From positions 1-20,970 of the IMG/VR virus record IMGVR_UViG_3300042462_000181: a DNA stretch of 20,970 nt. One strand, given 5' to 3'. The notes below the pieces were generated by a model that searched no databases, was not told the origin of the DNA, and saw nothing but the letters and a program-made list of their open reading frames with translations. The stretch is from a virus. Numbering within the stretch: position 1 is the stretch's first letter; each line of letters begins with the position of its first letter. Shown here one piece after another: positions 2,248 through 17,184 of the stretch. A program made the translations under genes and the position numbers.

Positions 2248-3836
2248 TGAGTGAAGAAAGAGAATATTTTCTAGGGGCAAGAATTGATGAGCCAGCAGAT
2301 AGTTTTGATGAATTTAAAAACAGCGATCCCTTTAATAAAAACTGGTCAGAATTAAAATCTTTAAATGGTCTTGATAATAATTTTAGACGCAGAACAAATA
2401 GACTTGTAAAGGCAGAGCCATCTACTGGATATCTAGATAGTGCATTAGTACAATCTTCTGGAATAGACGGGGCTAAATCAAAAGAAATAAATCCAGGTAC
2501 TGTTTATCATAATGGATATGGAATGTTTGATGTAATTACTCCGCCATGGAATGTATATCAATTAGCAAATTTCTATGATACTTCTTTTGCTAATCATGCT
2601 GCAATTGATGCAAAAGTAGAAAATATTGTTGGCTTAGGCTATAAGTTTGAAATCTCTCCAAGAACAATGTTAAAATTAGAATCTTCTTCAGATGCAGATG
2701 CAGTGGGTCGTGCTCGTAATAGAATAGAAAGAGCAAAAATTGAATTAACCGATTGGTTAGAAGGTTTAAACAATGAAGATAGTTTTACAACTACAATGGA
2801 AAAAATAGTTACTGATGTTCAGGCAATTGGTAATGGATATATGGAGGTTGGCAGAACTGTTAAAGGAGAAATAGGATATATTGGACACATTCCAGCAACC
2901 ACAATGCGTGTTCGTAGACTTCGTGATGGATTTGTTCAAATTATTGGACATAAAGTAGTTTATTTTAGAAATTTTGGAGCAAAAAATCCTAATCCAATTA
3001 CTTCAGATCCAAGACCGAATGAAATTATTCATTTTAAACAATACTCTCCACTAAATACATTTTATGGAGTACCAGACATTATGTCTGCAATTACATCTTT
3101 ACAGGGCGACCAATTAGCATCACAATATAATATTGATTATTTCTCTAATAAGGCTGTGCCAAGATATGTTGTAACCTTAAAGGGCGCCAGATTATCGGCA
3201 GATGCAGAAGATAAAATGTTTAGATTTTTACAGACAGGCCTTAAGGGGCAGTCACATAGAACTCTATACATCCCGCTTCCTGGAGATAATGATGGCAATA
3301 AAGTTGAGTTTAAGATGGAGCCAATTGAAAATGGTATACAGGATGGATCATTTAAAGAGTATCGCAAACAAAATAGAGATGATATTTTAATTGCACACCA
3401 AGTTCCTTTATCCAAACTTGGTGGTGGAGATTCTTCTGCAATTGCTGCTGCCTTGGCTCAAGATAGAACGTTTAAAGAGCAGGTTGCTAGACCAGCACAA
3501 AAACAACTAGAAAAACAAATTAATAAAATTGTTCGTGAGCAAACAGATATTCTAGAACTTAAGTTTAATGAATTAACGCTTACAGATGAAATTGCTCAGT
3601 CTCAAATATTAGAAAGATATGTAAAGACTCAGGTAATGTTGCCAAATGAAGCCCGTCAAATCTTAGGCTTACCTCAAAGAGATGGTGGTGATGATCCACT
3701 ACAGATGAAGCCTCAAGACATTGCCAATGAGACAGCAAATAGGCAAAGGGATTCTGAAAGACTAAATAATCAATCTGATGGCACTGCTACGATATCTGGA
3801 CGAAATCCAAAAGGTTCAGGTAGATCATCTCAATAA
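2247..3836 (+). CDS. Phage portal protein (PBSX/SPP1-like family)
   Basis: The portal forms the dodecameric ring at the unique capsid vertex through which DNA is packaged and ejected. At 529 residues it has a normal length for PBSX-type portals. Recognisable blocks in order are an N-terminal arm, the entry block near residues 98-135 (PPWNVYQLANFYDTSFANH, then NIVGLGYKFE), the wing/stem region with IHFKQYSPLNTFYGVPD, and the conserved block near residues 369-395 (KEYRKQNRDDILIAHQVP followed by LSKLGGG). The C-terminal 60 residues are polar, Gln/Asn-rich and probably disordered. The start overlaps the preceding stop by one base, implying coupling. The protease/scaffold and capsid genes follow directly, the standard head-gene order. 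No terminase gene is seen upstream in this window, although it usually precedes the portal. Confidence 0.9.
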   Translation: MSEEREYFLGARIDEPADSFDEFKNSDPFNKNWSELKSLNGLDNNFRRRTNRLVKAEPSTGYLDSALVQSSGIDGAKSKEINPGTVYHNGYGMFDVITPPWNVYQLANFYDTSFANHAAIDAKVENIVGLGYKFEISPRTMLKLESSSDADAVGRARNRIERAKIELTDWLEGLNNEDSFTTTMEKIVTDVQAIGNGYMEVGRTVKGEIGYIGHIPATTMRVRRLRDGFVQIIGHKVVYFRNFGAKNPNPITSDPRPNEIIHFKQYSPLNTFYGVPDIMSAITSLQGDQLASQYNIDYFSNKAVPRYVVTLKGARLSADAEDKMFRFLQTGLKGQSHRTLYIPLPGDNDGNKVEFKMEPIENGIQDGSFKEYRKQNRDDILIAHQVPLSKLGGGDSSAIAAALAQDRTFKEQVARPAQKQLEKQINKIVREQTDILELKFNELTLTDEIAQSQILERYVKTQVMLPNEARQILGLPQRDGGDDPLQMKPQDIANETANRQRDSERLNNQSDGTATISGRNPKGSGRSSQ

Positions 3837-3860
3837 ATGAGATATCATAAAAAAAGCCTC

Positions 3861-3873
3861 TATAATATATACT
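3861..3873 (+). promoter_or_regulatory. Candidate near-leaderless promoter for protease-scaffold-capsid unit
   Basis: The 40-base gap after the portal gene contains TATAAT (3861-3866) with TATACT overlapping downstream (3868-3873), the same composite seen at 1820-1835. Transcription from TATAAT would begin near 3873, four bases before the ATG at 3877. The bases before the ATG (ACTAGT) contain no Shine-Dalgarno, so translation should be leaderless or nearly so. No -35 box is visible. With the terminator at 6344-6381, this would define a unit of protease, scaffold and capsid. Confidence 0.55.
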
Positions 3874-3876
3874 AGT

Positions 3877-5181
3877 ATGACTATATCTAAAGCCCATTGG
3901 AATACAGAGGGCGAAAATATTCGCCTTTCAATGCCTTTTAGCAAGGTAGATAAAGAGAGACGTACAGTCTCAGGATTTGCCACACTCGACAATGTTGATA
4001 AACAAAATGATATAGTAACAACAGATGCTAGTTTGAAAGCATTTAAAAAGTTCCGTGGCAATATTAGAGAAATGCATCAACCATCTGCTGTTGGCAAAAT
4101 GGTTTCATTTAAAGAAGATAAATATTATGATGATGATTCAGAAAAAATGTATAGCGGTGTTGTTGTTTCTGCTTATATTTCCAAAGGTGCACAAGATGCA
4201 TGGGAAAAGGTTTTAGACGGTACATATACTGGTTTTTCAATTGGCGGAAGAATGAATAAGTGGGACGATGCTTATGATGAAAAAATGGATAAGCAAATTA
4301 GAATTATTAAAGATTATGATTTGGTAGAACTTTCATTGGTAGACAGTCCAGCAAATCAATTTGCAAATATTATTTCTGTAGAAAAAGTAGACGGTGTAGA
4401 TATTGTTAAAGGTGCAGACACTGTAATTGAAAATGTTTTTTGGGATAAAGATTCTGGAATTGTAATGGTTTCTGAGAATGAATCAGAAGTTAGTCCAACC
4501 ACAGGTAGCGTAATGCAAAATATAGGTTTCGTTGAAAAAACAGACAACGAAAAAACAACAATGATAAAGTTCTTAGTAGATAGTGCTAAAGGCATTAAAA
4601 CTTCTAAGATTAACAAGGAGGCAAGTCCTATGGCAAAAACAACAAAAGTAGAAGTTGAAAAAACTGATGCAGTAGTTGAAAATGTTGAGGTCGCTCCACA
4701 GGCAGATGCCGTAGTTGAAACAACTGAAGTTGCTAAGGCAGAAGAGGCCCCAGCAGTTGAAGAAGTTGTAAAGGCTGAAGAAGCCACAACTCCTGAAGTT
4801 GCTAAGGCTGAAGAAGCACCAGCAGCAGCAGAAGTTGTTGAAACAACTGCAGAAGTATCTAAAACTGATGATGTAGTTGCAGAGTCAATTACAGAAATTA
4901 AAAATACTCTTACATCAGCCTTTAGCGATCTAGTAGCAACTGTTAAGTCTCTACAAGAGCAAGTTGCAACAGTAAGCAAGTCCCTTGATTCTGTAAAATC
5001 AGAAGTACAGAGTGCAAAGGACGAATTTAATGAGTTTGGTAAGCGTGTAGATGCTGTAGAGGCAGATACTGCTTTCCGAAAGTCTGGAGATCTCGGAGAG
5101 ATTATTCAGGAAGAGCCAGCGATGGTTCAAAAATCCTTATGGGGCGGACGTTTCCTCAAAACAGCCGATCTATTTAGATAG
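3877..5181 (+). CDS. Prohead protease (XkdF/S78-like) fused in frame to a scaffold
   Basis: Residues 1 to about 180 form a prohead serine protease that cleaves scaffold and capsid arms during head maturation. Signature blocks are VSGFATLDNVDKQNDIV (residues 31-47), the probable catalytic His67 in REMHQP, the probable nucleophile Ser121 in GFSIGG, and VELSLVDSPAN (residues 150-160). Residues about 250-434 are different. There is an Ala/Glu/Val/Pro-rich tract with a 23-residue near-repeat (EVAKAEEAP at 284 and 307), then a likely coiled coil (about 340-400), and a short C-terminal tail ending KTADLFR. This second half looks like a capsid scaffold. It can also start independently at 4630 (see separate entry). 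The capsid gene follows after 23 bases. The scaffold assignment rests on composition and position, not on a recognised family. Confidence 0.85.
   Translation: MTISKAHWNTEGENIRLSMPFSKVDKERRTVSGFATLDNVDKQNDIVTTDASLKAFKKFRGNIREMHQPSAVGKMVSFKEDKYYDDDSEKMYSGVVVSAYISKGAQDAWEKVLDGTYTGFSIGGRMNKWDDAYDEKMDKQIRIIKDYDLVELSLVDSPANQFANIISVEKVDGVDIVKGADTVIENVFWDKDSGIVMVSENESEVSPTTGSVMQNIGFVEKTDNEKTTMIKFLVDSAKGIKTSKINKEASPMAKTTKVEVEKTDAVVENVEVAPQADAVVETTEVAKAEEAPAVEEVVKAEEATTPEVAKAEEAPAAAEVVETTAEVSKTDDVVAESITEIKNTLTSAFSDLVATVKSLQEQVATVSKSLDSVKSEVQSAKDEFNEFGKRVDAVEADTAFRKSGDLGEIIQEEPAMVQKSLWGGRFLKTADLFR
4615..4621 (+). promoter_or_regulatory. Internal Shine-Dalgarno for nested scaffold
   Basis: AAGGAGG lies inside the protease reading frame, eight bases before an in-frame ATG at 4630. 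It is as strong as the site of the capsid gene and far stronger than anything before the full-length start at 3877. It falls exactly where the protease-like sequence gives way to the scaffold-like Ala/Glu tract, which argues against chance. Confidence 0.65.
4630..5181 (+). CDS. Nested in-frame scaffold protein (internal start within protease gene)
   Basis: Starting at ATG 4630 (codon 252 of the protease gene) gives a 183-residue protein beginning MAKTTKVEVEK. It contains only the acidic repeat tract, the coiled-coil candidate (SITEIKNTL to about VDAVEADTAF) and the C-terminal tail. An AAGGAGG site precedes it at good spacing. This is the arrangement of phage lambda C and Nu3, where the scaffold is made in excess from an internal start in the protease gene. 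Scaffold proteins guide coat subunits into a prohead of fixed size and are then degraded by the protease. The capsid protein here has no obvious N-terminal delta domain, so a separate scaffold is expected. Independent expression is inferred from the sequence. Confidence 0.65.
   Translation: MAKTTKVEVEKTDAVVENVEVAPQADAVVETTEVAKAEEAPAVEEVVKAEEATTPEVAKAEEAPAAAEVVETTAEVSKTDDVVAESITEIKNTLTSAFSDLVATVKSLQEQVATVSKSLDSVKSEVQSAKDEFNEFGKRVDAVEADTAFRKSGDLGEIIQEEPAMVQKSLWGGRFLKTADLFR
4726..4863 (+). repeat. Tandem 69-base imperfect repeat in scaffold tract
   Basis: Two adjacent copies of a 23-codon unit begin at 4726 and 4795. Both start with GAAGTTGCTAAGGC and encode EVAKAEEAPA followed by an EVV-containing segment. 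The nucleotide match is strong for the first 30 bases and fades afterwards. Such tracts expand and contract by slippage and probably form a flexible linker before the coiled coil. Confidence 0.7.
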
Positions 5182-6323: not shown

Positions 6324-6343
6324 TCTGACTTAGCGTATTCCTT

Positions 6344-6381
6344 TTAAGGGGAGTGGGGATTTGTTTCTCTACTCCCCTTAA
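6344..6381 (+). terminator. Hairpin terminator after capsid gene
   Basis: TTAAGGGGAGT (6344-6354) pairs perfectly with ACTCCCCTTAA (6371-6381). The stem extends inward by five more pairs, including G-T wobbles, leaving a loop of about six bases. There is no good T-tract after it, so it may act as a hairpin-only terminator or as a 3' stabiliser. The next promoter begins seven bases downstream. Confidence 0.75.
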
Positions 6382-6387
6382 GTAATC

Positions 6388-6411
6388 TGTTATAATTAGT
6401 TAGTTAGGAGG
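6388..6411 (+). promoter_or_regulatory. Extended -10 promoter plus Shine-Dalgarno for neck operon
   Basis: TGTTATAAT (6388-6396) is a perfect extended -10 element. AGGAGG (6406-6411) precedes ATG 6416 by four bases. No -35 box is seen, which extended -10 promoters often lack. Placement right after the capsid terminator suggests transcription is restarted here for genes 6416-9519. Confidence 0.65.
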
Positions 6412-6415
6412 AAAG

Positions 6416-6871
6416 ATGTCTGATTATAAAGAAAATATTGAAGAAATTCAAGTAGAAGAATTAATTGAGGCCCCAGTTGCTGAAGAAACAAAAACGCAAG
6501 AAGTGGCTTCTGAATTTGGAATTGAGTCATCTATTTCTGAAGTAGAAGAAACAAAAGATGATGAAATAATTAGTTCTCCAGAAAAAGAATTTTCTGTTCC
6601 AGCAGTTCCTGCAATGAATGTAGGACAGAGTGGAGCGATTTCATCTGGGGGAGCAAATAAAAAAGATAAGCCAAGTAAAAATAGTTCCGCAAAGGCAGAT
6701 GACACAGTTGCTGTTCATAGTACAAAAAATTTACATGCATCTGGATTAAAGTCAATTTATAAAGGATTTAATATTTTGTCAACAGCCCATGCAGATAAAT
6801 GGCTTGCAAAAAGACCTAATGAGATTCGACTGGCTACACCAGAGGAAGTCGCTAAGGCTTTTGGCAAATAA
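6416..6871 (+). CDS. Small acidic protein between capsid and adaptor genes, unknown role
   Basis: This 151-residue protein has two parts. Residues 1 to about 65 are very acidic (Glu-rich) and probably disordered. A Gly/Ser/Lys linker covers about 66-95. The C-terminal 55 residues form a compact basic domain (VAVHSTKNLHASGLKSIYKG, then NILSTAHADKWLAKRP and LATPEEVAKAFGK). This C-terminal pattern, ending in a Thr-Pro-Glu-Glu-Val-Ala motif, recalls small proteins encoded just after the capsid gene in many actinophages; their function is not known to me. It could be a capsid accessory or neck protein. It opens the transcription unit after the capsid terminator and has a strong ribosome binding site. 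The next gene starts nine bases downstream. Confidence 0.75.
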   Translation: MSDYKENIEEIQVEELIEAPVAEETKTQEVASEFGIESSISEVEETKDDEIISSPEKEFSVPAVPAMNVGQSGAISSGGANKKDKPSKNSSAKADDTVAVHSTKNLHASGLKSIYKGFNILSTAHADKWLAKRPNEIRLATPEEVAKAFGK

Positions 6872-9585: not shown

Positions 9586-10239
9586 ATGGCATATACTAGA
9601 GGTTCATCTAGCGAAATTATCGTTGGTGCTGCTGCGTTATTCACAGCAGATTCAACTCTTGACGCAAACACAGTTCCTGCTTTTGTATCAGACGAGTCTT
9701 ATAAAGAAACACTTTCTAATTCTCTAAATACAGAAGTTAGCGCTGCTGGCGTTGAGAATGTTGGATACACCAGTAACGGTATTGAAATCACTTTCCAACC
9801 TGATTTCGGTGAAGTGCAGGTAGACCAGATTCTTGACGTTGCTAAACTTTACAAGCAAGGAATGCAAGTAACTCTTGCTACTTCGTTTGCAGAGGCAACC
9901 CTAGAGAATTTGCTATTCGCAATCGCAGGAAACAGTGATGACCTATCAGGAAGCAAAGGAACATCTTCAGGACGTATACTAGATCTTAAGTCTGGTGACA
10001 TCGGAGAATGTCCAGTAGAACGTGCTCTGATTGCTGTTGGTCCAGGAACTGGTGATTGTGTTGACTCATCATCTGTTGAACGTGTATACATTGCATACCG
10101 TGCACTTTCTATTGAAAATGTAACAGTATCAGCAAAGCGTGATACCGCAACAATGTTTGACGTCACATTCCGTCTTCTACCAGAAGACGCATCAGGATCA
10201 TACGGAAAAATCGTTGACCGTACAATCCAAGAATCATAA
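9586..10239 (+). CDS. Major tail tube protein
   Basis: At 217 residues it has the usual length for siphovirus tail tube proteins, which stack as hexameric rings. Family-like features are an N-terminal GSSSEIIVGAAALF strand, the block EITFQPDFGEVQVDQIL with a following helix-strand (KLYKQGMQVTLATSFAEATL, then ENLLFAIAGNSDD), and a late beta stretch (VSAKRDTATMFDVTFRLLPE). Its codon use matches the capsid gene (CGT for Arg, many C-ending codons) and differs from both flanks, as expected for the second most abundant virion protein. No sheath gene lies nearby, so the tail is non-contractile. A rho-independent terminator starts 18 bases after the stop. Confidence 0.82.
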   Translation: MAYTRGSSSEIIVGAAALFTADSTLDANTVPAFVSDESYKETLSNSLNTEVSAAGVENVGYTSNGIEITFQPDFGEVQVDQILDVAKLYKQGMQVTLATSFAEATLENLLFAIAGNSDDLSGSKGTSSGRILDLKSGDIGECPVERALIAVGPGTGDCVDSSSVERVYIAYRALSIENVTVSAKRDTATMFDVTFRLLPEDASGSYGKIVDRTIQES

Positions 10240-10257
10240 AAACTTAATATAGATCAG

Positions 10258-10289
10258 AAAGGACTCACTAGAAATGGTGGGTCCTTTTT
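10258..10289 (+). terminator. Rho-independent terminator after tail tube gene
   Basis: AAAGGAC (10258-10264) pairs with GTCCTTT (10281-10287). Five further pairs lie inside (two T-G wobbles), with a six-base loop and a CTTTTT tract at the 3' side. This is a textbook intrinsic terminator. It shows that the in-frame ATG at 10274, inside the hairpin, is not the start of the next gene. Confidence 0.88.
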
Positions 10290-10297
10290 GGTACAAT
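10289..10297 (+). promoter_or_regulatory. Extended -10 promoter giving a leaderless chaperone mRNA
   Basis: TGGTACAAT is an extended -10 element (TGn plus TACAAT) whose first base is the last T of the terminator tract. Six bases separate it from ATG 10304, so the expected transcription start is the A of the ATG. No Shine-Dalgarno is present. The terminator and promoter therefore share bases and cannot be separated. Confidence 0.62.
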
Positions 10298-10303
10298 AGA
10301 GTG

Positions 10304-11005
10304 ATGGCAAATGCAATTTATGAAATAAAAAATATTACTACATTAGATGGTATTGAGATAGAAATATCTTCATTAAAAATAAAATATTTAAGACAATGTA
10401 TGTCTGCTTTTGAAGCAATAAAAACATCTACTAGTGATTTTCAATCAATAGATATTTTAGTTGAATGTGCAAGAATATCTTTAAAACAATTTTATCCTTC
10501 ATTATCTTTAAGCAAAGAACTAGTTGAAGAAAATTTTGATTTGCCAACTATATATGAAATTTTAAGAGTAGGTGCGGGTATTGATGTTAATGCAAAATCT
10601 GAAACTGCAGTCAAAGATCAAGCCCTTGAAAGTGGAACAACCTGGAAAGACTTAGATTTGGTCAAACTAGAGTCTGAAGCATTTTTGTTAGGTATTTGGA
10701 AAGATTATAATGAATTAGAAGAGTCAATATCTATGCCAGAATTATCTGCTATTTTAGTTTCTAAAAGAGAAAGCGACTATGAAGAGAAGAAATTCTTGGC
10801 TGCAATTCAAGGAGTGGATTTAGATAAGGCTAATAATAAGCAAGAGGATGATCCATGGACCAAATTAAAAAATAGAGTATTTAATCAAGGAAGAAAAGAT
10901 AATGATATTTTAACCTTTAAAGGAGATAAGGCAAGACGTGCAGGGTTTGGTATTGGCATGGGTTTAGACTACGAAGATTTGACAAAAAATAACACCTCAG
11001 CGTGA
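10304..11005 (+). CDS. Long tail-assembly chaperone (gpGT-like)
   Basis: The start is set at ATG 10304, not 10274, because 10274 lies inside the terminator and 10304 sits seven bases after a -10 box. The 233-residue product has two domains. Residues 1 to about 97 match the neighbouring 110-residue protein (shared SIDIL.EC and DLPT.Y.I blocks) at roughly 40% identity by eye. The C-terminal half is unique, with SISMPELSAILVSKRE followed by KKFLAAIQGVDLDK, a pattern I associate with the T extension of tail chaperones. In lambda the long form GT bridges the tape measure and tube subunits and is made by a rare frameshift from G. Here it is a separate complete gene. The position just before the tape measure supports the role. 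Confidence 0.75.
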   Translation: MANAIYEIKNITTLDGIEIEISSLKIKYLRQCMSAFEAIKTSTSDFQSIDILVECARISLKQFYPSLSLSKELVEENFDLPTIYEILRVGAGIDVNAKSETAVKDQALESGTTWKDLDLVKLESEAFLLGIWKDYNELEESISMPELSAILVSKRESDYEEKKFLAAIQGVDLDKANNKQEDDPWTKLKNRVFNQGRKDNDILTFKGDKARRAGFGIGMGLDYEDLTKNNTSA

Positions 11006-11011
11006 TATAAT
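11003..11011 (+). promoter_or_regulatory. Extended -10 promoter for the short chaperone and tape measure
   Basis: TGATATAAT is an extended -10 element whose TGA is also the stop codon of the long chaperone gene. A TTGACA lies upstream at 10979-10984, but with a 21-base spacer it is too far for a standard -35. AAAGGAG (11026-11032) is the ribosome binding site, four bases before ATG 11037. Confidence 0.6.
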
Positions 11012-11036
11012 AATATAACCTATCTAAAGGAGTAAT

Positions 11037-11369
11037 ATGTCGACAGATAAAAATGTAGGTACTGAAGTAACATTGATGGATGGCACTAAAATTAATGTGC
11101 GTCCATTAAAAGTTTCACTTCTTAGACCTTTCATGAAACAATTTGAAAGTGTCGCTAACGTAGCAGACGATAATGAAAAATCAATTGATATTCTTATTGA
11201 ATGTGTCAAGATTGCTATGCAACAGTACAATCCTGAGTTAGCAAAAAGTCCAGAAAATCTAGAAGAGATTCTGGACCTTCCAACGGTATATAAGATTGTC
11301 GAGGGTGCATCTGGTATTAAGTTAACAGCAGCATCAGAATTGATGAATTCCGTTATTGCAAATAATTAA
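11037..11369 (+). CDS. Short tail-assembly chaperone (gpG-like paralogue)
   Basis: The protein has 110 residues. It aligns along most of its length with the N-terminal half of the protein encoded directly upstream: LMDGTKINVRPLK against TLDGIEIEISSLK, KSIDILIECVKIA against QSIDILVECARIS, and ILDLPTVYKIVEGASGI against NFDLPTIYEILRVGAGI. It stops where the upstream protein enters its unique C-terminal domain, so it corresponds to lambda gpG, the abundant short form that coats the tape measure. It has its own promoter and Shine-Dalgarno, whereas the long form has none, consistent with the excess of short form needed. No shared frame or slippery site links it to its neighbours. Confidence 0.75.
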   Translation: MSTDKNVGTEVTLMDGTKINVRPLKVSLLRPFMKQFESVANVADDNEKSIDILIECVKIAMQQYNPELAKSPENLEEILDLPTVYKIVEGASGIKLTAASELMNSVIANN

Positions 11370-11379
11370 ATAAAAAGCG

Positions 11380-11445
11380 GGGGTGCTGTAGATGGCTGAT
11401 GTCAATGCTAATATTAGTGTTAATATTGACACCTCTACAGCCCTC
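11380..11445 (+). promoter_or_regulatory. Hairpin covering the tape-measure ribosome binding site and start
   Basis: GCTGTAGA (11385-11392) pairs with TCTACAGC (11434-11441). Past a bulged T, GGGG (11380-11383) can pair with CCTC (11442-11445). An inner GTCAAT/ATTGAC pair (11401-11406 with 11425-11430) stacks inside. The outer stem includes the G-rich site before the gene and the A of ATG 11392. Folding would reduce initiation unless a ribosome opens it. The effect is inferred. Confidence 0.5.
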
Positions 11446-14400
11446 GCTGAATTAAAGTCATTACAAAGACAATTAGCATTATTTCATTCTTCAGTTGCTA
11501 AAAGTAGTGCTGCTGCTAGTTTAGCGCAGGGACAACTACAAAGAGAACTACTTAATACAGTCAATGCCACTGGCAAATTTGCTGCCACGATGGTTAACAT
11601 TAGAACCAGTACAGAATCATTTACTCATGCGCTTGAAACTAATAAACTTGGAATGCGTGAGTATTTTAGATATGCTGGTGGTGCAACAAGAACATTTGGA
11701 AAATTATTTAAATCAGAATTTGACACAATTGGAAAAGTTTCTGAAGAACGTGTCAAGAAAATGCAAACCCAATACATTAAAATGGGTCGTGATGCAAATG
11801 GTGTTGTTAAAGCAATGGCAATCAAGCCACTTGTTTTGGACATGTCTGATTATGGAACTCAAACACAATTAGCAGCACAAAGACAGGCATTGTTTAATCA
11901 GTTAGTTAGACAAGGATCTACAAATCTATTAAACTTTGGTAAGAATACACAGTGGGCTGGCCGTCAGTTAATGGTTGGTTTTACTATTCCGTTAATGGCA
12001 GTTGCTACACAATCTGCAAGAACATTTATGGAAATGGAAGCAGCAGCACTTAAATTTAGAAAAGTATATGGAGATTTATTTACACCACAAGCAGAAACAC
12101 AACAAGCATTAGCCAATATTAGAGAACTTGGTGCACAATTTACACAGTATGGAATAGCCGTATCAGATACAGTTGCATTGGCTGCAGAGGCAGCAGCAGC
12201 AGGTTTTCAGGGGGTTGATTTACAGCGTCAAACAACTGAAGCAACACGTTTATCAGTATTAGGACAGATTGAATCTCAGCAAGCACTTGAAACAACTATT
12301 TCATTGCAAAATGCATTTAGAATGTCTTCTGAAGATTTAGCAAGTTCTATTGATTTTTTAAACGCAGTTGAAAACCAAACTGTTACCTCTCTTGATGACA
12401 TCACAACCGCAATACCTAAAGTTGCTCCAGTTATTCAGCAATTGGGTGGAGATGTAAAAGACTTAGCATTTTTATTAACAGCAATGAAAGAAGGTGGAGT
12501 AAACGCATCAGAAGGTGCAAATGCACTTAAATCTGGTTTAGCAGCATTAATTAATCCAACGTCAAGAGCAAGCGACATGCTTGCAGGCATGGGCATCAAT
12601 ATTACTAAGATTATAGAATCTAATCAAGGTAACTTACGTGCCACAGTAGTTGAATTTGCACAAGCATTAGATAGGCTTGATCCATTAACTAGAGCAAGAG
12701 CAATTGAACAATTATTCGGTAAGTTCCAGTTTGCACGTCTATCTACATTATTTGATAATGTTATTAGACAAGGAAATCAAGCATCAAGAGTTTTAGACTT
12801 GGCTGGTTCTTCTGTAGAAGATCTTGCTGCTTTATCTGCACAAGAATTAGGAATGACTGCAGATTCAGCAATGAATAAGTTTAGAAAAAGCGTAGAAGAT
12901 CTTAAACTTGCATTGCAGCCAGTAGGAGAAGTATTCTTACAGGTAGTGACTCCAATTATTGAATTTTTTGGAAATATACTAGAAAAATTTTCTGGACTAT
13001 CAGATAGAGCAAAAAGATTTATCACATTAATGGTTGTTGGTATTGGTGGGCTTGGTCCAGTTTTATTAATGACTTTTGGTTTATTGGCAAACGGATTAGC
13101 CAATATCATTAAATTATTTTTAAACCTAAGGAATGGTTACTTAAGATTATCTGGACAATCTCAAATACTTGGAGAACAAACTAATTATTTAACTGCTGAA
13201 CAATTAGAGGCTGCCACTGTCGCAGCATCTTTAAATCAAAGTCATTCAAACTTAACACAAACATTTACTCTTGAAGCAAGTGCAGTTAATGCTTTACGTA
13301 ATGCATATCTTGATGCTAATTTAGCAGCAAAAGAATTTGCAACAAGAAATCCTGGAATGATGTTGCCAAAACGGGCAAAAGGTTATGCGTCTGGTATTGT
13401 TTCTGTTCCTGGTCCAAAGGGTGCTGGAGACGTTGTTCCAGCAATGCTTTCTCCAGGTGAAGCCGTTATTCCAGCAGATATGGCAAAGAAGTATGCACCA
13501 TTAATTCAGGGAATGGTTGCTAATAATATTCCTGGATTTGTTGATGGATTATTTCCAACATATACAAATGCAGTGACATTATTACAATCTGCTACAAACC
13601 AAGCATTAAAAGGTAGAACTGGAGTTAGTTCTGAATCTCTTGCAGCAGAATTTAGTAAAGGTGGGGCAGGTATTCAAGCACCAATAGTTAGAGCAGTAGC
13701 ACAGGCTATGGGCGCCACTAATGTTAAGCAAGTTGTTAAATTAATTGAGTCAGAGCCAGGATTAAAACAATTTGGAAATTCTATTTCACAAGGCGTGGCA
13801 TTAGAACTTAGTAAATTAGGAAAACAAAATATTACTGATCCTAAACTTACAAAAATATATCAACAAGTAGCAAGACAACAAGCACAAAATTTTGGACAAC
13901 TTTATACTCAAGCAACAGAGCAATTTTTAACAGAAATTACAACATTTGAAGATACAACTAGAACTAGAATTAATAAAGAAGGACGGATACGTTCAATTGG
14001 CCGTGCAGGAATTTTTACTGGAAAGCGTTCTTATAGAAGTATGGGTTATGGCTCAGTAGCAGGAGCATTAGGTTTGTCAAGTACTAGGGGATTGGTTAAA
14101 GCACACGTAGCAGATCGAACAATGATGAGTTTGCAAGCATTAGAAACACAGGGACAACTTACTCCAGCAGCAAGACAAGCAATTATTAGACAAACACAAG
14201 GAACTACAGAATTAGTTGCACAAACAGCACAAACACAATCTCCATCTAGAATAACAAGAAAAATTGGTCAGGATATTTCTAGTGGATTGGCTTTAGGAAT
14301 GAAAGATGGGCAAACTAAAGTTAATCAAGAGGCCAAACAGTTAGGAAGACTTGCAACAGATTCAAGAAATATGCTGTATGGCGGTAAAACTGGAACAATA

Positions 14401-17184
14401 GATCCAATAGAAAAATCTATACGTAGACAAAAAGAAAAAACTATGGGGGATATTGTTAGAGAAAGAGTAATAAATAAAAATCTTCTTAATGATCAAATAC
14501 AGCAAGAAAAACAAGCAAGGCTTGCTACTATGAGAATGGCTAAGTTTAATACTGCATTAATGTCTGGTATGTTTGCGTTAACATCACTTGGTGGGGTTGC
14601 ATCAATGGCTGGTGGCAATATTGGTAGACTGGGTGAAATTATGTTCCAAATAAGTGGACCATTATTTGCATTATCTTCATTATTACAAGTATTTACTGGA
14701 ACTCAAATGTTGAAATTATTAAAAGAATTTCCTTTAAGATTTGGTGCAGCAGCAATAGCAATTGGTGGTTTAATAGCAGCGATTAAAATTATTAATTCTA
14801 GAAGAGAAAAAGAAAGACTTGCAATAGAAGGTTTAGCAGATGCTGCTACATTGACTACAGAAAAAGTAAAAACTCTTGGGGATTATTTTAATATAACCCC
14901 AAATAAACTTCCATCTGAAATGGCTGGAATTAGTGCATTTACAACACCAATTAATGAAAGAACTAGGATAGAAGGATTAAAAACAAACGAGGGATTTCAA
15001 AAACAATTTGCTCCAAATATTAAAAATTTAAGAAGTGCAACCGACGAACAGGCTAGATTAATTTTAGAATCTATGGCCATAGTATTGCGAGGACAAGGAT
15101 TTGCAAAAGATCAAGTTAATATTATTTTAAAGGCTATTGCTGAAGAGGCTGGAAAGAGTACAGTTAAGTTAGACTTTAAAAAATTAGATATTTCTACTCA
15201 AGATGGTCAACAACAGATTGTTACAACTGCTAATGAAATTGTAGATAATTTTAATAAAGCCTTTGCTGCTGGAATACAGAAAAAATTTGCAAGAAGTCTG
15301 TCATCTCAAAAAGTCATTTCTTGGATTGAATTAACTAAAGAACAAAAGCAACAAATAAAAACTGCTGGAAAAGAATTAGGCAATATTTTATCTGGATTGG
15401 CAGGTCAATTTAAATTAGGAATTATTAATGCAAGTACATATAATGAAATGACAAAATCTCTTTTATCTACAATTTCAGATACTGAGCAAGGATTTTTATT
15501 ATTAAGATCAACATTATCATCAATAAATCCTGAATTTGCAAAAGCAACTGCACAGGTTAAAGATTTTAAGAGTCAGGCATTGTTGCTTAGATCGGCAATT
15601 TTTGGTTTACAGGTTGCTCCTGAAATATTAAGCGATTTAATTAATGGTGATGTTATTCAGCAAGGCAGGGCTCGTTATCAACTTGAGCAATTAGCAACCG
15701 CTGCTGAAAAGGCTCAACAAGTTATAAATGATAAAACTGGCAATACTGGCGGAACAGGGAAAGGCCTTTTAGATATATTAAAAGAAAGAATTTTAGCCAC
15801 ACAAGAACAAACAAAAGCATTCATTGCTATGCGTAAGGCTGGTATTGATGCAGTAACGGCTCAAGAATTGGCTGCTGATCCAGAATTAAGAACTAAATTA
15901 ATAGCAGCAGCAAAAGCAGGTAAAAAGGCTTGGATGGATGCCACAGCAGCAATTAAATCTTATGCAGCAGAACAGAAAAAATTAAACCAAATGTTGGTTG
16001 CTGGACAAGATCAAGGAGATTATGAAAAATCTCGTTTAGAGATGGCTCAAAAATATATTGATTTACAAGAACATATTATTGATATGCAGAATCAGCCACA
16101 ATTACAAAAATATGATGCAGAAATTACTTCAATTAACAATCAATTAGATGATATAAAAATTAAAGAAGATCAAATTAATGAAAATTATAATAAACAAACT
16201 AATGCTCTTAATAAAATAAAAAACATTAATGAAAATATTAATAATTTACAAAAACAAAGATTATCAATTGCTGATGCCTTAACAAGAGGAGACATTTCTG
16301 CAGCAGCACAAGCAATTCAGGATGCTAGGGCACAGCAATCATCTATGTCAATGGAAGTATCACAACAAGCATTAGAATTAGGTAGAGATAATGCAATCGC
16401 AGCACTTGGCAAAAAAGAATTGGAAACACAGTTAACGTTATTACAAAAACAAAAGAAAGCATTAGAAGATAATATTCAATTAGAAAAAGACAGAATTAAG
16501 TATCTTGGCATGACTAAAAATCAAATTGATAATGCGGTTAAAGCCCTTGATCTTGCTAAAAGTGCAGAAATTGATATTAATGATCCTAATTTCTTAAATA
16601 ATATATTAATAGGCGCAAAAGGTGATGCTGGTGCATTAGAAGAGGCTCTTAAAAAAGTGGCACAACAAGCAAAAGAAGCATTTACATTGTTGACTTTATT
16701 AAGATCTAAGCAAATTGAGCAGCCAACTTATACTGGATCTGGAGCAGGATATTATATTGGTGGAGGCATGGGTGGTTACGATGCTGCTGGTAGATATGTA
16801 GGAACTCCATTTGGTCAAGCAATGTATGGTGGATTTATTAAGAGAATGGCTCCAGGTGGAATTGTTAATGGTACTGGAATGACAGATAAGGTTCCTACTT
16901 TATTAACACCAGGCGAATTTGTGATTAATAAAAATGCTGCACAAAGGTTTGCACCATTATTAAATCAAATCAATGAATCAAAATATCCAGATAGTTTATC
17001 TTTTGGCGGTACGCCAGTAGTTACTGCAGCAACAAACACTTCTGTAAATAATTCTAACACAGTGTATAATTATAGTTTGAGTGTTACCGCTAATACCGAT
17101 GGAGCAAGTCCAGATGATATTGCAAGAACGGTTATCTCTCATATTAGAAATTTGGATGCTCAAAGATTAAGGAGTAATAGATAA
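11392..17184 (+). CDS. Tape measure protein (TP901-type core)
   Basis: This 1930-residue protein sets tail length and is likely to help DNA enter the cell. Residues about 188-540 form the TP901-type core (WAGRQLMVGFTIPLMAVATQ, AAEAAAAGFQGVDLQRQTTE, LLTAMKEGGVNASEGANALK). Hydrophobic segments lie near 543-577 and 1054-1135 and may insert into the host membrane. The motif GAGDVVPAMLSPGEAVIP occurs at residues 677-694, and its relative TDKVPTLLTPGEFVINK at 1831-1847. A long Gln/Asn/Lys-rich coiled coil spans about 1544-1730. At about 1.5 angstroms per residue, the usual scaling, the tail would be near 290 nm. The gene follows both chaperones, the normal order, and its stop overlaps the next start (TAATG). 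No lysozyme or peptidase motif was recognised. Confidence 0.92.
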   Translation: MADVNANISVNIDTSTALAELKSLQRQLALFHSSVAKSSAAASLAQGQLQRELLNTVNATGKFAATMVNIRTSTESFTHALETNKLGMREYFRYAGGATRTFGKLFKSEFDTIGKVSEERVKKMQTQYIKMGRDANGVVKAMAIKPLVLDMSDYGTQTQLAAQRQALFNQLVRQGSTNLLNFGKNTQWAGRQLMVGFTIPLMAVATQSARTFMEMEAAALKFRKVYGDLFTPQAETQQALANIRELGAQFTQYGIAVSDTVALAAEAAAAGFQGVDLQRQTTEATRLSVLGQIESQQALETTISLQNAFRMSSEDLASSIDFLNAVENQTVTSLDDITTAIPKVAPVIQQLGGDVKDLAFLLTAMKEGGVNASEGANALKSGLAALINPTSRASDMLAGMGINITKIIESNQGNLRATVVEFAQALDRLDPLTRARAIEQLFGKFQFARLSTLFDNVIRQGNQASRVLDLAGSSVEDLAALSAQELGMTADSAMNKFRKSVEDLKLALQPVGEVFLQVVTPIIEFFGNILEKFSGLSDRAKRFITLMVVGIGGLGPVLLMTFGLLANGLANIIKLFLNLRNGYLRLSGQSQILGEQTNYLTAEQLEAATVAASLNQSHSNLTQTFTLEASAVNALRNAYLDANLAAKEFATRNPGMMLPKRAKGYASGIVSVPGPKGAGDVVPAMLSPGEAVIPADMAKKYAPLIQGMVANNIPGFVDGLFPTYTNAVTLLQSATNQALKGRTGVSSESLAAEFSKGGAGIQAPIVRAVAQAMGATNVKQVVKLIESEPGLKQFGNSISQGVALELSKLGKQNITDPKLTKIYQQVARQQAQNFGQLYTQATEQFLTEITTFEDTTRTRINKEGRIRSIGRAGIFTGKRSYRSMGYGSVAGALGLSSTRGLVKAHVADRTMMSLQALETQGQLTPAARQAIIRQTQGTTELVAQTAQTQSPSRITRKIGQDISSGLALGMKDGQTKVNQEAKQLGRLATDSRNMLYGGKTGTIDPIEKSIRRQKEKTMGDIVRERVINKNLLNDQIQQEKQARLATMRMAKFNTALMSGMFALTSLGGVASMAGGNIGRLGEIMFQISGPLFALSSLLQVFTGTQMLKLLKEFPLRFGAAAIAIGGLIAAIKIINSRREKERLAIEGLADAATLTTEKVKTLGDYFNITPNKLPSEMAGISAFTTPINERTRIEGLKTNEGFQKQFAPNIKNLRSATDEQARLILESMAIVLRGQGFAKDQVNIILKAIAEEAGKSTVKLDFKKLDISTQDGQQQIVTTANEIVDNFNKAFAAGIQKKFARSLSSQKVISWIELTKEQKQQIKTAGKELGNILSGLAGQFKLGIINASTYNEMTKSLLSTISDTEQGFLLLRSTLSSINPEFAKATAQVKDFKSQALLLRSAIFGLQVAPEILSDLINGDVIQQGRARYQLEQLATAAEKAQQVINDKTGNTGGTGKGLLDILKERILATQEQTKAFIAMRKAGIDAVTAQELAADPELRTKLIAAAKAGKKAWMDATAAIKSYAAEQKKLNQMLVAGQDQGDYEKSRLEMAQKYIDLQEHIIDMQNQPQLQKYDAEITSINNQLDDIKIKEDQINENYNKQTNALNKIKNINENINNLQKQRLSIADALTRGDISAAAQAIQDARAQQSSMSMEVSQQALELGRDNAIAALGKKELETQLTLLQKQKKALEDNIQLEKDRIKYLGMTKNQIDNAVKALDLAKSAEIDINDPNFLNNILIGAKGDAGALEEALKKVAQQAKEAFTLLTLLRSKQIEQPTYTGSGAGYYIGGGMGGYDAAGRYVGTPFGQAMYGGFIKRMAPGGIVNGTGMTDKVPTLLTPGEFVINKNAAQRFAPLLNQINESKYPDSLSFGGTPVVTAATNTSVNNSNTVYNYSLSVTANTDGASPDDIARTVISHIRNLDAQRLRSNR

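Follow-up and report, generated by a model that had tools for sequence, protein, structure and literature searches.

In a large clade of uncultured phages, recovered from metagenomes that are mostly of freshwater origin, the long and short tail assembly chaperones (TACs) are encoded by two adjoining paralogous genes, and our analyses suggest that a gene duplication replaced the −1 frameshifting by which related phages obtain both products from one gene. We put the probability of this explanation as a whole, including the assignment of the locus to tail assembly chaperones and of the phage to the large siphovirus-type phages, at roughly 0.85. At the level of sequence, the homology between the two proteins, the fusion in the long one, the arrangement, its single origin and the conserved regulatory layout are established. 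It is also likely, although we hold this somewhat less firmly, that this widespread environmental clade represents a single-origin natural swap of frameshifting for duplication, in which the paralogues divide the two products between them and the ratio is no longer fixed by the ribosome but by a dedicated promoter for each, that of the long gene being leaderless and mostly imperfect and that of the short gene perfect and led by a Shine–Dalgarno (SD) sequence.

The paired genes and their products

The window, i.e., the whole stretch of DNA analysed, is a 20,970-base virus fragment from IMG/VR with a GC content of 34%. The features of the locus are as follows.

9586–10239, + strand: major tail (tube) protein gene, the upstream neighbour (phrog_2175, E 4e-34; phrog_885, major tail protein; PF25681, sub-threshold)
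10253–10292, + strand: terminator-like hairpin and T tract of the intrinsic type, 3′ of the major tail protein gene (MFE −25.9 kcal/mol for 10240–10300)
10289–10297, + strand: extended −10 element TGGTACAAT for the long gene, whose transcript is predicted to begin with the A of the start codon (+1 at 10304), i.e., to be leaderless
10304–11005, + strand: long tail assembly chaperone, 233 aa, a permanent G-T fusion that matches −1 frameshift GT products end to end
11003–11011, + strand: extended −10 element TGATATAAT, which belongs to the short gene and overlaps the stop codon of the long one
11026–11032, + strand: SD sequence AAAGGAG of the short gene, identified by sequence
11037–11369, + strand: short, G-like tail assembly chaperone, 110 aa, assigned by homology to the long protein and by the N-domain tree
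11392–17184, + strand: tape measure protein gene, the downstream neighbour (phrog_10030, E 8e-96, and PF10145; part searched, 11392–13184)

The pair is flanked by the genes for the major tail protein and the tape measure protein, as is the case for gpG/gpGT-type chaperones, and the homologue of the upstream neighbour in Streptomyces phage Sham is annotated as a major tail protein. An earlier note, made from the letters of the window, had described two complete genes of 233 and 110 residues side by side with the long one first; both open reading frames (ORFs) and their order, with the tape measure gene next, were confirmed. An in-frame ATG at 10274 was rejected as the start of the long gene; it lies inside the terminator hairpin and is unconserved, and the conserved start is at 10304.

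In a BLASTP comparison, 38 of 91 residues were identical between the long and short proteins (42%; 65% similar) with an E value of 5e-24, and the likeness is therefore not due to chance. The alignment of the short protein with the N-terminal half of the long one, put at about 40% by eye in the earlier note, was thus borne out. Both proteins matched phrog_10504, and phrog_10474 was matched only by the C-terminal half of the long protein; in a wider alignment, both families were matched by all 69 long proteins. The N and T halves fall into separate families in known phages, as would be expected if a frameshift splits them. Furthermore, the long protein gave an uninterrupted alignment with the conceptual frameshift products of Streptomyces phages, including the region of the shift site (KLNDP...TWxxLDL against KINxKSEE...TWxxLDL), and this end-to-end alignment identifies it as a permanent G-T fusion. 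The short protein matched the unshifted product and terminates where the unshifted G does. Its tail had a mean score of 5.1 against the G tail (shuffles, −4.6), compared with −3.1 for the linker of the long protein (shuffles, −7.9), suggesting, if modestly, that the tail of the short protein is the closer of the two to that of unshifted G.

The annotated TAC relatives of the pair by sequence were those of Streptomyces and Rhodococcus phages. A Pfam search gave no match for the chaperone proteins of the window, and Phage_TAC_19 matched 2 of 69 short proteins, with unrelated families scoring equally well. The AlphaFold models were of moderate confidence (pLDDT 74.6 for the long protein and 68.6 for the short one). 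In a Foldseek search of the predicted viral proteins in BFVD, the long model matched, among others, a Caudovirales tail assembly chaperone at E 5.8e-4; matches to the GT protein of N15 and to an Enterococcus frameshift chaperone were weaker (E 0.036 for both). The short model showed a weak match to HK97 gp13 (2ob9; TM 0.45/0.46, E 5.2). No tail assembly chaperone was among the PDB fold-search matches of the long model, and nothing significant was obtained for either chaperone in this search or in a profile search against solved structures.

The long form is encoded in a single open frame, unlike the slippery-sequence route that is usual, albeit not universal, for gpG/gpGT-type chaperones. Across 177 long genes, no conserved slippery heptamer was found at the old junction; some heptamer of one kind or another occurred near it in about 20 of them, and a residual slippery site was rejected given that these heptamers were scattered and unconserved. 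The same genes contained 64 in-frame X XXY YYZ heptamers around a conserved KKF motif, approximately 45–50 codons past the conserved W, which are probably a by-product of lysine codons. A frameshift from the short gene into the tape measure gene was likewise rejected, as the two are separated by a gap of 22 nt and a TAG (11389–11391) directly precedes the tape measure ATG. With significant homology between the proteins and no frameshift joining the short gene to the tape measure frame, both objections that the earlier note had raised against itself fell away.

Relatives and origin of the pair

A survey of relatives, as proposed in the earlier note, extended to viral contigs and one phage contig that was apparently misbinned, and recovered the long-then-short pair in 299 of the 380 loci among the matches listed, in which some contigs were counted more than once; the paired loci comprised 177 distinct long-to-short segments. 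A single −1 frameshift gene without a second copy was found in 71 of the 380. Of the remaining loci listed, nine were incomplete at the locus and one (L084) carried the pair with its short gene (3744–4078) interrupted by a one-base frame change, which was seen in a single contig and is possibly a sequencing error. No intermediate arrangement was found among the 380 loci listed, and the short gene was present in every complete paired locus. At all 71 single-gene loci, the T ORF lay in the −1 frame, and the overlap contained a slippery heptamer (CCCAAAC in 49, CCCAAAT in 13, CCCGGAA in 7 and GGGAAAA in 2). When whole contigs were searched, the N domain occurred twice in each of the eight paired contigs covered (70–119 kb) and once in both of the frameshift contigs.

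In a set of 50,697 phage records searched with the two proteins, the matches comprised 127 Streptomyces phage records and five Rhodococcus records, the latter with the long protein only; no cultured member of the paired clade was found in this set. Each of the Streptomyces and Rhodococcus loci examined in detail had one chaperone locus in the corresponding position, its T ORF being in the −1 frame, and joined coding sequences are annotated in Sham, Yaboi and Dorin. In Boydwoodruffvirinae (L075, L224–L226 and L229), the likely shift site is the non-canonical CCCGGAA, and in several records of this group the T ORF is entered as a gene of its own or a hypothetical protein, not as a joined product. 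An uncultured aquatic clade (L303–L316, L322–L327, L369–L379 and others) with −1 frameshifting, mostly at CCCAAAC, was the nearest to the duplicated clade among the loci listed. A scan of bacterial and archaeal genomes gave one match only, a phage contig in a metagenome-assembled genome (MAG).

The host of the phage is probably an actinobacterium. A WhiB gene, a marker of actinophages (PMC10202952, PMC6802176), was found in 9 of 11 records tested, covering both arrangements, and was not found in the 70-kb contig carrying the window's own sequence. A frameshift-type relative in a cyanobacterium-labelled MAG (L302, CAINGU010000031.1) also carries a WhiB gene and is probably a misbinned actinophage contig.

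In a tree of the N domains, the long and short proteins grouped together to the exclusion of every frameshift G protein (100/100); the short proteins formed one clade (100/100), and the long proteins one clade or a grade (61% of bootstraps). A tree of the major tail and tape measure proteins, obtained by a quick search and rooted on two long-branched Rhodococcus frameshift phages, placed the paired phages among the frameshift phages, adjoining the aquatic frameshift clade, and the arrangement changed once on it. The identity between long and short proteins was 41.1% in the same genome and 41.3% between different genomes, compared with 34.5% between long and G proteins and 34.9% between short and G proteins. 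This equality within and between genomes, at a level above the identity to G, points to an old duplication without gene conversion. Together with the nesting of the paired phages, the identities indicate that frameshifting came first and that one duplication took place before the clade diversified. Given that relatives have, at this locus, a single gene with −1 frameshifting, recoding was thus replaced by duplication, once, and the corresponding proposal of the earlier note stood.

Regulatory layout and the ratio of the products

Generic sigma-70 and terminator scans of the window showed no excess over shuffles, and matches to TGNTATAAT in the window alone were not above chance (2 found, 2.8 expected). 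Conservation, scored over 175 distinct loci, was therefore used as the promoter evidence, and it is this conservation, not a match in a single window, that makes the promoter call convincing. The earlier note had pointed to a promoter-like element for each gene; in the window these are TGGTACAAT and TGATATAAT, and an extended −10 element in front of each gene was conserved across the 175 loci. The short gene was preceded by TGNTATAAT without mismatch in 175 of 175 loci, with a predicted leader of about 20 nt (17–31 nt), transcript starts being predictions from the position of the −10 element. The extended −10 element of the long gene, TGNTANNNT, usually had one mismatch and was perfect in 30 of 175 loci, and the predicted leader had a median length of 2 nt (−3 to 9 nt in 172 of 175); the mRNA of the long gene is thus predicted to be leaderless or nearly so. 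The restriction of the SD sequence to the short gene, also noted earlier, held throughout: a match of at least five bases preceded the short gene in 167 of the 175 loci (AAAGGAG at 11026–11032 in the window) and never the long gene, for which the best match was four bases. The hairpin 3′ of the major tail protein gene had a mean z of −6.2 against mononucleotide shuffles in the 175 relatives and was followed by a T tract. The frameshift-type G genes had a perfect TGNTATAAT in 33 of 41 cases, a leader of mostly 16–25 nt and an SD match of at least five bases in 38 of 41. Because they share the layout of the short gene, the short gene keeps the ancestral control region, and the long gene has a new one.

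Comparable elements were observed elsewhere in the window. Behind the major capsid gene lies a strong hairpin (−30.9 kcal/mol for 6324–6400, within 6324–6416 of the window), after which TGTTATAAT (6388–6396) and AGGAGG precede the gene at 6416, a terminator–promoter layout like that of the major tail protein gene. The genes at 1837 and 3877 have no evident SD sequence, and a TATAAT or TATACT lies no more than about 20 bases from their starts; near-leaderless starts may therefore extend beyond the long chaperone.

We propose that −1 frameshifting in a single ancestral gene yielded both G (short) and GT (long) and that this gene was duplicated at the base of the paired clade. One copy would have been fixed in frame as G-T, with loss of the slippery site, and the other cut down to G, retaining the ancestral promoter, leader and SD sequence. 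The long copy is flanked by the terminator of the major tail protein gene on one side and the promoter of the short gene on the other, and its mostly imperfect extended −10 element is predicted to start the mRNA at, or a few bases from, the ATG. In lambda, −1 frameshifting yields gpG and gpGT in a ratio of about 30:1; G attaches to the tape measure protein, and T brings in the tail tube protein (PMC5009743). By analogy, the tape measure protein would be lined by many short copies, and a few long copies would recruit the major tail protein through their T part. An excess of short over long could now arise from a weaker long and a stronger short promoter and also from the short gene lying on both transcripts, and SD-led versus leaderless initiation would perhaps add to it, which is the part of the scheme of which we are least sure. 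The earlier note had attributed the ratio to initiation strength. In mycobacteria, leaderless starts are common and leaderless initiation is reported to be about as robust as leadered initiation (PMC4633059), and leaderless reporters in these bacteria reportedly differ mainly in lower transcript production, not in clearly weaker translation (PMC7148126). Given these reports, and since the promoters here also differ, that attribution is uncertain; transcription is as likely as initiation to set the ratio. In TP901-1, a mutant with only the fused protein forms particles that look normal but are non-infectious (PMC4493119). A fused gene alone should therefore fail, which fits the retained short gene.

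Alternatively, the paralogues might have diverged to different jobs, such as serving different parts of the tape measure protein or the short protein regulating the long one, instead of being equivalents of G and GT. The invariant residues of the short proteins indeed differ from those of the long ones (PLKxSLL versus PLKIKYLR), and the stem branch of the short proteins in the N-domain tree is long (0.89). However, the domain content is exactly that of G and GT, the pair substitutes for the frameshift gene one for one, and the short gene retains the promoter, leader and SD layout of G together with a C-terminal tail that is, modestly, nearer to the unshifted G tail than that of the long protein; we consider such divergence unlikely. 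It is more improbable still that the long gene yields some short-like product through residual frameshifting to an early stop or through proteolysis, the short gene being an accessory booster. The heptamers scattered around the junction, which occur in about 20 of the 177 long genes, could be read in this way, as could those at the KKF motif, but the long genes have no conserved heptamer at the junction, where 71 of 71 frameshift relatives listed keep one, and the short gene is retained in every complete paired locus listed.

The use of metagenome contigs and the break in the short gene of L084 might also raise the suspicion that a frameshift gene was split into two ORFs by sequencing or assembly error. 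The 177 distinct segments, from many metagenomes, have the same structure, the copies are only 41% identical and each has its own conserved promoter. Such an artefact is already refuted, since independent contigs agree. The replacement of frameshifting by duplication is the reading that we favour.

Comparison with known systems

The Stanwilliamsviridae (Streptomyces phages Sham, Yaboi, Coruscant and Karp) and the Trinavirus-type Rhodococcus phages (Trina and Dorin) have homologous N and T domains. Their chaperones also lie between major tail and tape measure genes, these neighbours are homologous, and a terminator-like hairpin and a −10-like element are located upstream, as in the paired clade. 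In contrast, their only chaperone gene undergoes a −1 frameshift at CCCAAAT, CCCGGAA or GGGAAAA, and a second copy is lacking. Frameshifting is a widely conserved feature of tail chaperones, and a clade that has abandoned it makes the need of recoding for the ratio testable. Comparing the clade with its same-locus frameshift relatives could clarify whether recoding is needed or is one way among several to fix the ratio. The clade also provides a clean case of two recoding products split between duplicates and suggests a rule for annotation, namely that a TAC gene without a slippery site may have an adjoining short paralogue.

In terms of arrangement, lambda gpG/gpGT are alike in the C-terminal T domain on the long form and in the site just upstream of the tape measure gene, and an excess of short over long would be shared by analogy; the lambda system differs in that its long form is made via −1 frameshifting (ca. 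30:1; PMC5009743). Microbacterium phages of cluster EA have two separately expressed TAC ORFs “without an evident frameshift” (PMC7302621). They likewise lack evident recoding, whereas a fused long gene and a duplicated short gene are not part of their description (PMC7302621). No earlier description of the paired arrangement in siphovirus-type phages was found in the open literature.

According to the summary in PMC10885494 of the work of Vladimirov, Gautam and Davidson (2022, Virology 566:9–15), T4-like phages have separate short and fused long TAC genes and no frameshifting. Compared by gene arrangement alone, and as far as that summary describes them, these TACs are alike in having a separate short gene and a long gene in which the short one is fused to a downstream part. 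T4-like phages are contractile-tailed, whereas the actinophage clade shows a frameshift ancestor and split promoters. Because split genes have already been reported for T4-like phages, the arrangement in the paired clade is a variant and not a new solution, and it apparently arose independently of the T4-like case. What is new here is the frameshift ancestor at the same locus, the single event on the tree, the 177 distinct members and the conserved promoter split.
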